Shown here one piece after another: positions 34,988 through 41,286 of a stretch of 41,286 nt of DNA (position 1 is its first letter; each line of letters opens with the position of its first letter). Both the position numbers and the translations under genes were made by a program. The notes below the pieces were generated by a model that saw only the letters and a program-made list of their open reading frames with translations, made no database searches and was not told where the DNA came from. The stretch comes from Planctomycetota bacterium. Its GTDB lineage: Bacteria > Planctomycetota > Phycisphaerae > Phycisphaerales > SM1A02. The stretch lies in NCBI GenBank assembly GCA_022574595.1, contig JACZRS010000025.1, positions 1 through 41,286 of the forward strand. The letters are read 5' to 3'.

Positions 34988-35106
34988 GGTGGTTATTGTA
35001 CTAGGATGCTTCAAGTTAGCGATTATCACTTTGATGTCTAACAGGTAGAATTTCACTGCCCTTCCAAAAAAATGGCTCCGCAATGCGGAGTTCGTAGTAA
35101 CTAGAA

Positions 35107-35153
35107 TGGCGATGGGCGGACTCGAACCGCCGACCTAGGGTTTATGAATCCTA
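35107..35153 (-). tRNA. tRNA 3' half or degenerate tRNA-like gene (possible anticodon CAT)
   Basis: On the minus strand, GGCGG-TTCGAGT-CCGCC (35115-35131) is a perfect T-arm. CATCGCC and a discriminator A (35107-35114) follow as the 3' acceptor strand. Upstream, TAGG...CCTA could pair around a loop holding TTCATAA, but with a mismatch and an extra base. No D-arm and no 5' acceptor strand GGCGATG are found in the right place. So it is a tRNA remnant or a very degenerate tRNA. Such 3' fragments are typical integration scars of mobile elements. Confidence 0.5.
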
Positions 35154-35180
35154 TACGTACCCGCATTATCAAACCAATAA

Positions 35181-35552
35181 CGGCCTGGCGATATCTCAAT
35201 TGCGGATAAGTGAAACTCAATCAACCTATAAAAACCTCGGATGTAACTTGGTTAGTGTGCAAATTGCACACTAGATTAAGCCAGTAGGCGGTAGTTAACC
35301 ATCTCCCCGTGCAGCTTACTACAACCCACTCGCGTAGGCGAAACCTGTTAAAGGCTAAGTTAGACCTGTCCTCGCGTACTCTCAGCCTTCGCGCGCGCGT
35401 TCTGTTATACAAGAAAGGCTGATTCATACGCAAGAATGCGCTTTTTCGTTTTCAAATACCTACAGAATCGCGCGCAGAACGCGCACAATTGAAACTGACA
35501 CGACTCAGGTTACAAACCTTAATGGTTAAATACCTATGTGTGACGTAACTAT
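35181..35552. other. Intergenic region downstream of the recombinase operon
   Basis: About 370 bp with no supported gene. It contains GC-alternating runs (GCGCGCGCG at 35391-35399) and a GCGCG-CAGAA-CGCGC inverted repeat near 35471-35485. There is no U-run, so it is not a standard terminator. It may contain the crossover or attachment site for the recombinase, but I see no clear core. Confidence 0.35.
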
Positions 35553-36230
35553 TTAACCTCGCTTCAATACATTAGCGATAGTCTGAGCGCTCAGCCTACC
35601 TCCACGTCGATTGTAATGTCCTTGGCTTTCAAGTTCGGTAGCAATGCTACGTAGTGATAGTCCATCGTGGCGAAGTTGACGCATAAGAACGATAGCTTGC
35701 TGCTCATGGGCATCTTCTATCCAGCCACTTCCGTTTAGCTTGTAGCCATAGGGAGCGTGTCGGCTTATCCTCTTGCCATTGGATCGCATAACAGCCAATG
35801 CCTCAGATGTACGTTCTCCAATAGCTTCTCTTTCCCATTGGCTAACCGAACCCATTACATTCAACACTAGCCGACCCGATGCTGTACTTGTGTCGATATG
35901 ATCGGCAACACTGGCAAACTCAACTCCGGATCGTTGGAATAGATCGACTAACTCGCCAAGATCGCGCACTGATCGAGTTATCCGATCCAGTTTAGCAACT
36001 ACTACTACGCCAACCTTGCGACCACGAATCAGCCGGAGAAGCTCAGCCATGCCAGGACGATCCAAACTCTTAGCAGAGAAGCCAGCATCCTCGATAATTT
36101 TCATTAAGTCCAGATCATGCATCGTTGCATAGGCCTGGATCTTCATATGCTGGGATTCCAGACTTGCTCCACTATCAGCTTGATCTTTGGTACTGACCCG
36201 GACGTATCCAATAGCTTTAGATTCATTCAT
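35553..36230 (-). CDS. Serine site-specific recombinase (resolvase/invertase type)
   Basis: The protein has 225 residues from ATG 36230. The catalytic domain begins AIGYVRVSTKDQ with the nucleophile Ser13, then the segment ending MAELLRLIRGRKVGVVVV, AKLDRITRSVRDLGELVDLF (conserved Leu-Asp-Arg-x2-Arg), and SASGRLVLNVMGS-like and EREAIGERTSEAL helices. A C-terminal DNA-binding part (GLSLRSIATELESQGH, LSAQTIANVLKRG) is a helix-turn-helix. The start codon overlaps the stop of the ATPase gene (ATGA), so translation is coupled. Small serine recombinases resolve or invert DNA, or insert elements. Which one is meant here is not known. Gene and active site look intact. Confidence 0.93.
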   Translation of the reverse strand: MNESKAIGYVRVSTKDQADSGASLESQHMKIQAYATMHDLDLMKIIEDAGFSAKSLDRPGMAELLRLIRGRKVGVVVVAKLDRITRSVRDLGELVDLFQRSGVEFASVADHIDTSTASGRLVLNVMGSVSQWEREAIGERTSEALAVMRSNGKRISRHAPYGYKLNGSGWIEDAHEQQAIVLMRQLRHDGLSLRSIATELESQGHYNRRGGRLSAQTIANVLKRG

Positions 36231-36865
36231 ATTTTCATTACTCCTGCAGCTACGGCCTGCAACATAGCGCGCATGTTGTTCTTGCACTTCTGAGCTAGCT
36301 TGATGTATGCAGCAATAGGTTGTCCATCTAAGCCTTCTAGCTGCGCTATACCTTGAACATGAGCAGCAAACAGCTTTGCCAAGCCTTGATTCGTCAATGC
36401 AATATCAAAGCAGCGCGAACATAATGGGCTAGCGTCGATATGATCCTCAAATAACTCTGCTTGGCCTTCTTTGGTAGTGGTGAATATGACTACTACATGC
36501 GCTGGAATCATCTCAAGAACATCTAGCAGCAATTCGATACTTGGCGCGCTTAATCCATGCGATTCGTTGATAATGTACGCTCGTCCACCCTTGCCCCAAG
36601 CTGATAATTGCCAATCCTGGACAGTCTCTTTTATTGCCTTGACAGTGAATGCGCGCCCAACCGTAGTCGAGACAAAGAAATCATCGGCAATCAGCGCGCC
36701 AATGATCTTTGCAAGCGTAGTCTTTCCTGTACCGGATGCGCCGGATATCCAATAAGACTTGCCACCAGGATCGCCTACCGATTCAATCTGCTTAACTGCT
36801 TTAGGTTGTCCAACTACTTCGGACAATTTGCTCGGGCGATACTTCTCATATAATGGTAAACTCAT
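36227..36865 (-). CDS. Clamp-loader-like AAA+ ATPase (RFC/DnaX type)
   Basis: The protein has 212 residues from ATG 36865 (MSLPLYEKYRP), with GGAGTC upstream. Motifs of the clamp-loader family: EKYRPSKLSEVVGQ at the start; Walker A GASGTGKTT (42-50); YIINESHGLS (98-105) at Walker B, where the usual Asp is Asn100 and Glu101 is kept; ATP sensor region VVVIFTTTKEG; and the SRC motif SPLCSRCFDIALT (147-158). It lacks most of a collar domain and is short, so it may assist a host clamp loader or a plasmid/phage-type replication system. It lies between ardC and the recombinase with a 4-bp overlap to the latter. Its exact DNA target is unknown. Confidence 0.85.
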   Translation of the reverse strand: MSLPLYEKYRPSKLSEVVGQPKAVKQIESVGDPGGKSYWISGASGTGKTTLAKIIGALIADDFFVSTTVGRAFTVKAIKETVQDWQLSAWGKGGRAYIINESHGLSAPSIELLLDVLEMIPAHVVVIFTTTKEGQAELFEDHIDASPLCSRCFDIALTNQGLAKLFAAHVQGIAQLEGLDGQPIAAYIKLAQKCKNNMRAMLQAVAAGVMKI

Positions 36866-36899
36866 AGTAAAGACTCCATAAAGTAGAATGAAACCAGTG

Positions 36900-37760
36900 C
36901 TAAACTGCAAGGATGTAGTCAGCAGCCTTCTGCGCAGCCGATGCGGATTGGATAACTAGCTTCGAGTCGTTGCGAAGCTTCTTGAGCCAGCCGTCGATAT
37001 AGCTAGCTGCGTTTTCGATTGTTGACGCCTCAATGCTGCAATGACCACAAAGAAAAGCCGATCCCATCTCGGCAACCAATTCCTCTTTGGCATAGCTTGA
37101 CGATGCGTAGTCAGCCTTGTCAGTAATTCCTGTACGAGCCAACCTATTCTTGCTTCCGGTTGAATGAGTCAATTCGTGGAATAATGCAGCGTAGTAATGC
37201 TCGGCAGATTTGAACCTATCCGGCTGAGGCATCTGTATCTTATCTTCACTAGGTTGGTAGCTTGCTCTATGACCGCATATCTCAATCTTTGGCGGATTGG
37301 GCATACTGGCCACGACCGACTCACAACGCTCGATCGGATCGAAGTCTATTTGTGCAAGGTTCGATTGTGGATACTCAACGCCTTCAGTTTGCTGAACATT
37401 GAAGACCGAATAGAAGCGCAACACTGGAATTGAGACTTGTTCTAGCTTGCGAGTTAGAGGGTCGCGCTTTGCTACTTCATACTGCTTATAGAAAACGACC
37501 CTAGTAGACTTTTCACCCTTCTTGACGTTTCCACCACGTTCTTGAGCTTGCTTGTAGGTTAGCCAGTAGGCTGATTCGTACCCTTCGCACCACGAAGTAA
37601 CGCCAAGTAGAAAAGGGTTGACTCCACGGTAATGCTTGCCCGATGCTAGATTCTTAGGGCAAGAATCCTCACCAGCCCAAGGCTTATGCCAAGGGACGAC
37701 TCCGCGCTCTAATAGCTCAATAACTCGATCCGTGACTATTTGATATACTTTGTTTGCCAT
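36900..37760 (-). CDS. ardC: ArdC-like antirestriction / ssDNA-binding zincin protein
   Basis: The protein has 286 residues. Start ATG at 37760 with AAAGG upstream. The N-terminal ArdC/DUF1738-type region (VYQIVTDRVIELLERGVVPW, GKHYRGVNPFLLG, YWLTYKQAQERGGNVKKGEK) is a ssDNA-binding domain. The C-terminal zincin-like metalloprotease domain has HELTHSTG (195-202) and a second motif EELVAEMGSAFLC (226-238) that supplies the Glu ligand. ArdC proteins of conjugative plasmids protect incoming single-stranded DNA against restriction. This is the first gene of a three-gene unit; the ATPase gene starts 34 bp further on. It is the best evidence that this region came from a plasmid or conjugative element. 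Confidence 0.92.
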   Translation of the reverse strand: MANKVYQIVTDRVIELLERGVVPWHKPWAGEDSCPKNLASGKHYRGVNPFLLGVTSWCEGYESAYWLTYKQAQERGGNVKKGEKSTRVVFYKQYEVAKRDPLTRKLEQVSIPVLRFYSVFNVQQTEGVEYPQSNLAQIDFDPIERCESVVASMPNPPKIEICGHRASYQPSEDKIQMPQPDRFKSAEHYYAALFHELTHSTGSKNRLARTGITDKADYASSSYAKEELVAEMGSAFLCGHCSIEASTIENAASYIDGWLKKLRNDSKLVIQSASAAQKAADYILAV

Positions 37761-37782
37761 TGAAATACCTTTCTTTGGCCGC

Positions 37783-37922
37783 GCTCCCGGTAGCTTCTAC
37801 TACGCGGGAGCAATTTTAATTGTCGGCTATGCTTCACAATGAAGCCTTAGCCCTTATGACCGATGTTCTGTAAACATCCGGTCGGATATAGACAATACTA
37901 TACACTTCTATCGCCTTTGCAA
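37783..37922 (-). promoter_or_regulatory. Putative promoter, operator palindrome and leader hairpin of the ardC operon
   Basis: On the minus strand, TTGCAA (37917-37922) and TAGTAT (37895-37900) are separated by 16 bp as in a sigma-70-like promoter. Just downstream is an inverted repeat, GACCG(G)ATGTT-tacag-AACATCGGTC (37858-37883), with one bulged base, fit for a dimeric repressor. Closer to ardC is a hairpin, GCTCCCG...CGGGAGC with an inner GTAG-CTT-CTAC stem (37783-37811), 23 bases before the start codon. Promoter assignment is tentative; the two inverted repeats are plain in the sequence. Confidence 0.45.
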
Positions 37923-38082
37923 GCGCTTTACTACTACTTTTCCATAAGTTTTCAAGTATTTTTCACCGCAAGATATCGACTTCGCTGCGATATCTTTACC
38001 ATACCCTCCGCCTTCGCACAGAGAGGTACTGGGTTAACCTCCTCCTCGCGTAGTTGCAATTCTGTCGTAACGCAATCAGTTA
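37923..38082. other. Intergenic region
   Basis: No gene is supported. A partial echo of the repeat unit that follows, TTCTGTCGTAACGC, lies at 38060-38073. The minus-strand frame at 37952-38191 crosses the repeats and has no ribosome binding site, so it is not called. Confidence 0.4.
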
Positions 38083-38152
38083 GGGGGGCCTTCAAAGTAT
38101 GTGCTGCTGTCAAAAAATTGGGGGGAAAACTTGGTTTGTTACGCAACGGCAC
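38083..38152 (+). repeat. 70-bp G-rich repeat unit 1
   Basis: Unit layout: GGGGGGCCT, 20 variable bases, AAAAAATTGGGGGGAAAA, 10 variable bases, then ACGCAACGGCAC. Unit 2 at 38171-38240 has the same blocks at exactly the same spacings. The variable stretches are not similar, so spacing and blocks are conserved over the sequence between them. Confidence 0.8.
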
Positions 38153-38170
38153 GAATTGGGGATCAGCGAA

Positions 38171-38240
38171 GGGGGGCCTAGAAATACTCAACGGCTATTA
38201 AAAAATTGGGGGGAAAATTCTGCTTGTAACGCCACGGCAC
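38171..38240 (+). repeat. 70-bp G-rich repeat unit 2
   Basis: This unit has the blocks GGGGGGCCT, AAAAAATTGGGGGGAAAA and ACGCCACGGCAC co-linear with unit 1, 88 bp downstream. An 18-bp linker separates the units. It resembles an iteron or protein-binding array more than a decayed duplication. Confidence 0.8.
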
Positions 38241-38385
38241 TCGAAGAGCGCGTGTATTACTGCCAGAACTGACGCAATGAATTCACCATTTAGTCGTAAT
38301 AACGCTTGAAACTGCGTACTGACCTGAAACTCGGATCGGCACTCGTGCGTATTGTGCGCTAGAGCAATTGAAAAGGGAATTGCAG
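38241..38385. other. Leader of the following membrane-protein gene
   Basis: A 145-bp stretch without a gene. It ends with AAGGGA (38373-38378), the ribosome binding site of the gene starting at 38386. Nothing else is recognised. Confidence 0.4.
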
Positions 38386-39117
38386 ATGGATAGCGAGTTC
38401 ATCTCATCAACGACTAATCTGGTATCTACGATTGTCCGGCACACCATCCGATTCATTCAAAAACCTGTAGTGTCCGTCTTATTCGGCGTCGCACTGTTTC
38501 TGGATGCATGTTCGTTGGGCCAGGGGTCAACTGTTGGCAGCATTATCACACAGCCGTTGCCCCGTCAATGTGGTGGCTACTACAGCACTTTCGCTATCAT
38601 TGTTGAAGGTGTGCAAGGTGCCGAGCTAATGGATCAAGAATCCGTTAGCGACTTTAATCTCGATGAAGAGAAGGTAATAGGTTTCGCTTCTTGCTACCCT
38701 AGGCCATCGTACAGCGGCTGGTGGGCGATTACGGAACAGACCCACAACGCAACTCTTCGCGTCTTATCACAAACACGATCTTTTACTCTTCAGGAACAGC
38801 AAAGGTTACCCCAGCAATTCGCTGAACTAATCGAAAAGAACGAGTGGTACCTCAATGCTGAGTATGTTGACAAGCTTCGTTCTGGTGGAGGAAAATTGCG
38901 GCGCATCCTCTGGAGCGGATACATACATAACGTGGTAGCTACTTTCCTTGCGACAGCTTTTCTATTTTCATTCGGCTGGTTGCCCAAACGAATAGCGTCT
39001 AACCGGCGTGAACAAGCTCAGTCCAGCGGTCTCTGTCCGGAGTGTCGATATGATCTTCAGGGATTAGCAGAGGAAGGCTGCCCCGAATGTGGCTGGGGAC
39101 GGGAAGCTGAGGCGTAG
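38386..39117 (+). CDS. Membrane protein with C-terminal planctomycete zinc ribbon
   Basis: The protein has 243 residues from ATG 38386 (MDSEFISSTTNL), with AAGGGA 7 bases ahead; a TTG six codons earlier is less likely. An N-terminal hydrophobic segment (PVVSVLFGVALFLDAC) and a second near residues 190-205 (VVATFLATAFLFSFGWL) bracket an external domain of about 140 residues with no known fold. After the second segment comes LCPECRYDLQGLAEEGCPECGW, a zinc ribbon of the 'CxxCxYDLxG...CPECG' kind often seen at the end of planctomycete membrane proteins. Function is unknown. The next gene starts 9 bp later and has the same design, so they form a pair. Confidence 0.78.
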   Translation: MDSEFISSTTNLVSTIVRHTIRFIQKPVVSVLFGVALFLDACSLGQGSTVGSIITQPLPRQCGGYYSTFAIIVEGVQGAELMDQESVSDFNLDEEKVIGFASCYPRPSYSGWWAITEQTHNATLRVLSQTRSFTLQEQQRLPQQFAELIEKNEWYLNAEYVDKLRSGGGKLRRILWSGYIHNVVATFLATAFLFSFGWLPKRIASNRREQAQSSGLCPECRYDLQGLAEEGCPECGWGREAEA

Positions 39118-39126
39118 AATGATGCT

Positions 39127-39816
39127 ATGAAACGCCGCCTGTTCAAACTTGCATTGTTTCTTCTACTCGGTGCGATAGTTAATGTTGCGGTGGCGTGGGG
39201 GTGTGCGATCAGACTCGATATCCGCAAGAGTTCAGGTACATCGCTATACCGATCTCTATATCCGGATGAAAGCCAATCCGAAGATCCATTCTGGATGGTT
39301 TCACGACTTACTAGACCCGGGGCTATGCACCTCTTTTCACACCGAGGCATGCCGCATCATGGCCCTAGTCCGAGTGCATTGGAGGGACTGCCTGAATCAC
39401 TTGTACCGAATTGGGCACGCGACGAACTGTTGCCATGGCAGAGTAGTAGTATCACGCAGTTAAACGATTTCGGTAACTGGACGGTAGATGCCCGCGGCTG
39501 GCCCCAATTGTCCTTGTGGTGCGTTTGGGCACGAAAAATATTACGCCTGCGGCCAGCCGAAGGGGGGATCCAACTACCCGAGCGATGGGTGATGGAACAC
39601 GATCGCCAGTGGCTCAGAGTTACAACACTACCGTACCGCCCCATCTGGCCCGGTTTTGCGATCAATACGATCTTCTACGCTACGATTCTTTGGCTACTAA
39701 CACTTGGCCCATTCACCGCGCGCCGAATGATTCGCCGCAAGCGCGGTCTCTGCATCAAGTGTGGATACGATCTGCGAGGAATGGATCACGATAAATGTCC
39801 GGAATGTGGACATTAA
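39127..39816 (+). CDS. Membrane protein with C-terminal planctomycete zinc ribbon (VAWGCA family)
   Basis: A 229-residue protein. The first membrane segment, LALFLLLGAIVNVAVAWGCA, is a family mark I know from many planctomycete hypothetical proteins; an external part of about 140 residues follows, then a second segment (INTIFYATILWLLTLGPF), RRMIRRKRG and the ribbon CIKCGYDLRGMDHDKCPECGH. It starts 9 bp after the previous stop. The function is not known. A shortened copy of its N-terminus lies 42 bp downstream (39859-40050), so the family is expanding or decaying here. Confidence 0.8.
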   Translation: MKRRLFKLALFLLLGAIVNVAVAWGCAIRLDIRKSSGTSLYRSLYPDESQSEDPFWMVSRLTRPGAMHLFSHRGMPHHGPSPSALEGLPESLVPNWARDELLPWQSSSITQLNDFGNWTVDARGWPQLSLWCVWARKILRLRPAEGGIQLPERWVMEHDRQWLRVTTLPYRPIWPGFAINTIFYATILWLLTLGPFTARRMIRRKRGLCIKCGYDLRGMDHDKCPECGH

Positions 39817-41203: not shown

Positions 41204-41286
41204 GGTCCGGTGGGCGTGCGGGGTGTAACCCTGTGAAAGTGAGCGATTTGGATCGATGTTAATCATTGGAAAAGGCTATGGCTAGG

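Follow-up and report, generated by a model that had tools for sequence, protein, structure and literature searches.

A collar-less clamp-loader ATPase encoded between ArdC and a small serine recombinase is probably part of the backbone of tRNA-targeted integrative islands in Planctomycetota

Introduction

Islands that sit at tRNA genes and carry tyrosine integrases are already well known (available portion of PMC4383910), and the tycheposons and phage satellites outlined in the accessible parts of PMC10872708 and PMC11389934 resemble the islands described here. ArdC-N domains bind single-stranded DNA and guard incoming DNA against restriction, and ArdC is characteristic of conjugative elements and seldom occurs in phages, according to the available part of PMC5512222. 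Integrative islands that have neither capsid nor conjugation genes are common, and little is known about the genes by which they replicate and become established. Clamp loaders assemble by their collar, and the AAA+ proteins TnsC and IstB are regulators or targeters of DDE transposases.

Here we analyze a window of 41,286 nucleotides, the whole stretch of DNA under study and the entire contig C5 of a 4.09-Mb, 31-contig planctomycete assembly, in which genes for ArdC, a short AAA+ ATPase and a serine recombinase follow one another. With a probability of roughly 0.6, we take this trio to be the entry, replication and multimer-resolution backbone of tRNA-targeted integrative islands with a tyrosine integrase.

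Results

Three coupled genes encode ArdC, a short AAA+ ATPase and a small serine recombinase

The trio occupies the minus strand of the window (Table 1), with a gap of 34 bp between the ArdC and ATPase genes and a 4-bp ATGA overlap between the ATPase and recombinase genes; coordinates, order and coupling are those of the original prediction. The recombinase start was taken as the ATG at 36230; the listed open reading frame begins at a GTG (36287). The first protein matches the Pfam families ArdcN (1e-35) and MPTase-PolyVal (1.1e-35), contains the HEXXH motif as HELTH and thus has the ArdC-N plus metallopeptidase composition of ArdC. It aligns at 1e-52 with the solved ArdC of plasmid pSa (6i89, 6sna) across residues 5-283, sharing both domains. 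Unlike the situation for pSa, no conjugation gene was found here: a PF03432 search of the whole genome gave no relaxase, as had been predicted for this DNA, and the same search was positive in one of 14 control genomes.

The recombinase matches Pfam Resolvase (3.2e-40), and its catalytic domain has the Ser and Arg motifs of serine recombinases. Its best solved relative is the TP901-1 integrase catalytic domain, aligned over residues 5-135. With 225 residues and the Resolvase domain as its only Pfam match, it does not have the full Recombinase and zinc-ribbon domains of a large serine integrase; one relative, in L062, has a PF07508 match at positions 3-50 of 102.

Table 1. Positions of the trio and of associated features (numbers without a prefix refer to the window; C, contig; L, fetched locus).
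Feature	Position	Strand	Basis or remark
ArdC, 286 aa: ArdC-N ssDNA-binding domain and zincin-like metallopeptidase	37760-36900	minus	Pfam and solved-structure match
Mini clamp-loader AAA+ ATPase, 212 aa, from ATG 36865	36865-36227	minus	PHROG, fold, motifs
Serine recombinase, 225 aa: Resolvase catalytic domain, short C-terminal part	36230-35553	minus	Pfam
Non-coding stretch after recombinase; candidate recombination site	35288-35476		68% identity to the corresponding stretch of C7
Leader hairpin just upstream of ArdC start	37783-37811	minus	four own-genome copies
Two 71-nt direct repeats, 88-bp spacing, with box AAAAAATTGGGGGGAAAA	38082-38240		76% alike
47-bp tRNA-Met(CAT) 3' fragment, displaced att half	35105-35151	minus	exact identity to C3:116073-116119
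Intact tRNA-Met gene	C3:116044-116117
Trio copy on C7	L009 8018-10675
Trio copy on C4	L010 8759-11006
tRNA-Leu(CAA) gene	C4:39450-39533
59-bp tRNA-Leu repeats	C4:39479-39537 and 65384-65442		exact
52-bp tRNA-Arg repeats	C25:64417-64468 and 84052-84103
47-bp contig-end overlap	41240-41286 and C29:58098-58144		exact

The ATPase has a clamp-loader fold and ends before the collar

The ATPase matches a PHROG clamp-loader family (3e-25), and its sole Pfam match, DNA_pol3_delta2 at 4e-4, is under the curated cut-off. It contains a Walker A motif (GASGTGKT), a Walker B motif with NE, an SRC motif and a sensor-2 arginine, and in 41 ATPase sequences K48, E101, S150, R151 and R199 are invariant and N100 is nearly so. 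The top Foldseek match of its AlphaFold2 model (pLDDT 95.5) was an E. coli clamp-loader chain (6.5e-11), and VIA-align placed 201 of the 212 residues on residues 2-234 of 362 in E. coli gamma/tau, with a Z of 21.5 and an rmsd of 2.1. At the level of sequence profiles, the match to gamma (3.6e-24) comprises two stretches and skips gamma residues 74-95, which we take to be the zinc module. The protein thus has domains I-II of a clamp-loader AAA+ protein (core and lid fold, SRC motif), and collar domain III is absent, as the chain ends where gamma residue ~234 of 362 aligns.

Domains I and II, the SRC motif and the sensor-2 arginine are shared with DnaX (gamma/tau), the RFC small subunit and T4 gp44, whereas the length of 212 residues, the missing collar, the lack of anything matching gamma 74-95 and the NE in place of DE in Walker B set the ATPase apart from all three. 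The absent collar is the chief obstacle to a role of this protein in ordinary clamp loading, and it raises the question of whether domains I-II alone are sufficient to act on a sliding clamp.

One copy of the trio lies at the border of a tRNA island and another beside a tRNA fragment

The genome contains three copies of the trio, in the window, on C7 and on C4, which supports the earlier proposal that the three genes belong together. Identities of the C7 and C4 copies to the window copy are 93 and 85% for ArdC, 67 and 61% for the ATPase, and 88 and 75% for the recombinase. On C4, 59 bp of the tRNA-Leu region have an exact copy 378 bp past the recombinase, and these repeats delimit an island of ~26 kb. 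The tRNA end of this island encodes a Phage_integrase protein (2.8e-14) and a DUF3987 primase/helicase (6.2e-61), and the trio lies at the opposite end. Its cargo includes a type IIG restriction-methyltransferase (5.1e-298) and a PLD/SNF2 helicase (best 1.7e-52), and its gene list, judged by eye, contained no capsid or conjugation gene. The idea of a defence-evasion module applies to ArdC only. Restriction genes are encoded by the C4 island itself.

A second island, of ~19.6 kb, lies on C25 between repeats of 52 bp of tRNA-Arg. It encodes a Phage_integrase protein (7e-18), an AAA_25 protein with primase/helicase matches and an ArdC-N protein (7.7e-7) whose gene has the same leader hairpin as the trio; the trio ATPase and recombinase are absent. 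The islands on C4 and C25 both have the tyrosine integrase, intact tRNA gene and displaced 3' fragment of Islander-type tRNA islands. We also observed in the C25 island a 1337-aa protein (L012 2-4012) with a portal-protein family match (8.9e-50, residues 444-758), which is perhaps a phage-type polyvalent protein.

In the window, by comparison, there is a 47-bp tRNA-Met fragment alone in its contig, 401 bp from the recombinase, and ARAGORN detected no tRNA gene. The identical bases on C3 are the last bases of the intact tRNA-Met gene together with its 3' flank. The C7 copy had no Rfam tRNA match within its 19-kb locus, and none of the 12 PF00589 matches in the genome is on C5 or C7. Beside the intact tRNA-Met gene, C3 encodes Phage_integrase and Prim-Pol plus DUF3987 proteins and has candidate defence model matches (PDC-M26A, 4.6e-37; PDC-M26B, 2.4e-4). 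Three consecutive genes at L043 491-8570 on C3, for a McrB-like ATPase (by eye), a DUF2357 protein and a 926-aa protein, are a candidate defence system. This tRNA-Met gene on C3 was the sole intact one detected with the 3' sequence of the window fragment, and the far end of the integrase element beside it was not found. As the integrases and DUF3987 proteins of C3 and C4 have no mutual tblastn match at 1e-3, islands that differ at their left ends have the trio in common. The end of the window overlaps C29 exactly by 47 bp, in what looks like an assembly-graph join. The genes of C29 read by eye as core, and the remainder of the window's island is therefore missing, C5 running by this overlap into core-like sequence. 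Joining C3 and C5 as halves of one island, parted by a rearrangement, was set aside as unproven: the C5 end overlaps C29, and the sole match of the C3 end is to a repeat on C9. Both island ends were thus observed for one of the three own trio copies, that on C4.

The original prediction suggested a minimal mobile or defence-evasion module. A self-contained, stand-alone mobile unit would be ~3 kb long (35.1-38.3 kb), would move itself with the serine recombinase as integrase and would have landed by tRNA fragments by chance. It would fit the absence of a tyrosine integrase from C5 and C7, the homology between C5 and C7 that ends near the trio (about 35288-38203), and the lack of a match between C3 and C4 at the left ends of their elements, despite matching C4 and C5 trios. 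We nevertheless judge it unlikely: a 59-bp tRNA repeat forms the border of the 26-kb C4 island, which encodes its own tyrosine integrase and DUF3987 protein, and the trio lies just within that border; the window copy has a tRNA-Met 3' fragment next to it; and tyrosine integrases accompany 12 of the 25 relatives in other genomes. Moreover, recombinase types are swapped between loci and include the classic HTH_7 resolvase type, which would be odd for a defining integrase, and a target-site duplication of the unit's own, sought by eye, was not seen.

Three further features of these regions were recorded. An AbiEi-like gene followed by two frames resembling a broken AbiEii nucleotidyltransferase (by eye; L009 12944-14681) sits between the C7 trio and succinate dehydrogenase-looking genes. 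Two loci have small frames with a similar LPEAV..I..MVK C-terminal motif close to the ATPase or recombinase gene, at L060 7345-7581 and L009 10960-11230 (minus). A multi-copy protein family with an MKRRLFKL start and often a CPECG zinc-ribbon-like tail (window 38368-39816, L010, L043, L012, L009) is scattered within and outside islands and could be a mediator of rearrangements.

Elements conserved between copies flank the trio

The leader hairpin is supported by four sequences from this one genome (C5, C7, C4 and C25), in which 43 of 44 cells are paired and four of 11 pairs have changed on both sides (seven cells). Its covariation score was attained by one of 500 shuffles, and slid versions had 0-1 pairs changed on both sides. 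The hairpin could be an RNA element or a DNA operator. Farther upstream, the direct repeats, which are spaced 88, 87 and 90 bp apart in the respective trio copies, are candidate origin or regulatory repeats. The G-rich box AAAAAAWTGGRGGGRAAW, with at most one mismatch, has five occurrences in the 4.09-Mb genome, each of them upstream of a trio copy (two on C5, two on C4, one on C7), and did not occur in the reversed control. A consensus scan of 35080-38400 found no minus-strand sigma-70 site. The regulated-looking promoter proposed earlier is thus supported only in part, by the conservation between copies of the hairpin, with its compensating changes, and of the G-rich box. Downstream, res-like sites sought as repeats 3' of the recombinase gave nothing convincing.

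The trio recurs in other Planctomycetota, often with tyrosine integrases

In 40 relatives of the genome (24 of the family and 16 of the order), the matches were long-frame DnaX-type proteins, and the short ATPase occurred only in the window's own genome. Phylum-wide, 10 of 392 genomes had an ATPase match at 1e-12, MAG contig VRUL01000049 had one at 57%, and in the class of G335 143 of 347 genomes matched at 1e-15, mostly through long DnaX-type frames. We scanned open frames with purpose-built profiles at 28 short-ATPase loci, three from the window's genome and 25 from other Planctomycetota. This set leaves out G530:C204 (same coordinates as C205, with a nearly equal score) and the more diverged G061:C49, G180 (three), G307, G114 and G141; two of the latter, L065 (G061:C49) and L069 (one of G180), had no ArdC or recombinase match when scanned.

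The neighborhood search advised in the original prediction showed that the trio recurs: the full order ArdC-ATPase-recombinase on one strand was found at 11 of the 28 loci, the three own copies included (the window, L009, L010, L061, L062, L216, L064, L197, L198, L203 and L205, with the L061 recombinase truncated by the contig end). ArdC adjoins the ATPase at 16 loci, upstream at 14 and downstream at two, one of which is a weak 26-bit match (L199). A recombinase follows on the same strand within 1.1 kb at 15 loci and at 2.3-3.9 kb at five more. Contig ends hide one side of at least five loci (upstream in L060, L202, L204 and L215; downstream in L212). By comparison, none of 39 control loci with long-frame DnaX-type proteins (open frames of 349-756 aa, mean of 3.4 kb of sequence) had an ArdC, recombinase or integrase match within ~1.4 kb.

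The tyrosine integrases of the 12 loci noted above were counted in fetched regions of up to 10 kb, compared to 1.4 kb for the control, and three of the 28 loci have one within 1.4 kb; the matches in L203 and L208 are fragments at contig ends, and that in L209 is in pieces. At six of the 12 loci (L197, L199, L204, L205, L210, L213) the integrase is beside or overlaps a tRNA gene, and five of five integrases submitted to Pfam passed PF00589. A primase/DUF3987 match was present at four of the 25 loci (L064, L197, L210, L213). At the seven other-genome loci with a tRNA gene that were tested, the fetched DNA contained no second tRNA copy.

The position of the recombinase so close behind the ATPase invites another reading, in which the ATPase is an AAA+ partner that regulates or targets the serine recombinase, perhaps through the sliding clamp. 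The two frames overlap or nearly touch in C5, C4 and L059, and the association is retained despite changes of recombinase subfamily. We consider this role improbable, given that neither a recombinase nor ArdC was matched within the flanks, fetched to at most 6 kb, of 26 of the 27 viral contigs with an ATPase relative, that L201, L206 and L209 have ArdC and ATPase genes with no recombinase found downstream (in L209, within 1.5 kb of sequence only), and that a DUF6876 gene intervenes between ATPase and recombinase in C7. It is similarly doubtful that a collar-less, clamp-loader-derived ATPase is a dedicated partner of small serine recombinases that couples island recombination to passage of the replication clamp; if true, this arrangement would be the serine-recombinase counterpart of AAA+ regulators of DDE transposons.

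ATPase relatives in viral contigs and selection on the trio

The trio was not found in known plasmids: eight plasmid records matched the ATPase, all at <60% identity and six annotated as dnaX, and DNA comparison with 72,556 plasmid records gave one match, of 87 bp, to the recombinase. DNA comparison with phages gave no match. An origin of the trio from a plasmid or phage was set aside at the DNA level on these results.

A viral scan with the single ATPase protein gave no matches, whereas an 11-row alignment gave 79 loci. In IMG/VR, 27 of these contigs (L118-L144) encode relatives of the short ATPase at 35-60% identity; the remaining 52 loci encode longer clamp loaders (frames of 300-396 aa) and had no ArdC or recombinase match. 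L137 is the only viral contig with ArdC and a larger serine recombinase in its fetched flanks, and most of the 27 share no recurring neighbor besides the ATPase (five loci were dropped as having no matching gene call). PHROG searches of four contigs detected terminase in L128 and L119, nothing in L137 and one match of unknown function in L144. A tree was built from 41 ATPases, 18 cellular and 23 viral, leaving out L136, L138, L140 and L141; its bootstraps were not fully settled. On it the label changes at least four times on well-supported branches and nine times on the best tree. This mixing, with the occurrence of the family in both viral contigs and islands, suggests that these ATPases may be a case of gene exchange between phages and islands.

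Mixing of this kind would also fit a reading of the trio as a prophage or phage-satellite remnant, phage-derived DNA without present function, and the window copy does lack its other island end. Its ATPase has in addition lost the nearly invariant E67 and D69; over residues 61-90 its identity is 23% to the C7 copy and 10% to the C4 copy, as against 87% between those two, and this divergence suggests a local replacement (window 36600-36690). A remnant is nonetheless unlikely. The catalytic motifs of ArdC, ATPase and recombinase are intact in all three copies, and dN/dS was 0.057-0.148 in eight of nine comparisons among them (one dS was infinite and several were saturated). Judged by these substitution patterns, the trio is under purifying selection.

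Discussion

Our preferred reading, that the trio serves as a backbone of tRNA-targeted islands, retains from the original prediction an affiliation with mobile DNA and the look of working with host replication. Such islands would excise and integrate by their tyrosine integrase, would replicate as circles with a phage-type primase/helicase and would carry cargo, for example defence genes; their transfer would depend on some other element. In a C4-like island that is intact, integrase and trio occupy opposite ends, and closure into a circle would therefore bring the trio up to int, with attP between them. From what is known of its family, ArdC would protect incoming DNA. The mini clamp-loader ATPase would bring the host sliding clamp and replicase to the product of the island's own primase on the circle during replication; multimers of that circle would be resolved by the small serine recombinase.

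No description of the trio, or of a collar-less clamp loader in islands of this kind, was found in the literature searched, with most subscription journals outside it. The trio is compact, recurs and includes a truncated clamp loader, and it can serve as a marker in searches for such islands among Planctomycetota.

Tycheposons, the elements of Hackl et al. 2023, reportedly carry replication genes, as the islands here do. Like the islands here, they have a tRNA border, a tyrosine recombinase and cargo, but hosts and backbone genes differ (PMC10872708, available part). The phage satellites PICI, PLE, PICMI and P4-like elements likewise combine an integrase with a replication gene and defence cargo, and C4 has no capsid genes by eye; helper, packaging and capsid-remodelling genes were not identified in the islands here, in contrast to these satellites as presented in the available part of PMC11389934. 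A further difference from satellites is ArdC, a protein of conjugative elements and rarely of phages in the accessible text of PMC5512222. The closest likeness in layout is to Islander tRNA islands, as far as the available portion of PMC4383910 describes them: C4 and C25 likewise have a tyrosine integrase and are bounded by an intact tRNA gene on one side and a displaced 3' fragment on the other. Compared to those islands, the window copy has one end only, and what distinguishes the islands here is a backbone of ArdC, mini clamp loader and serine recombinase.
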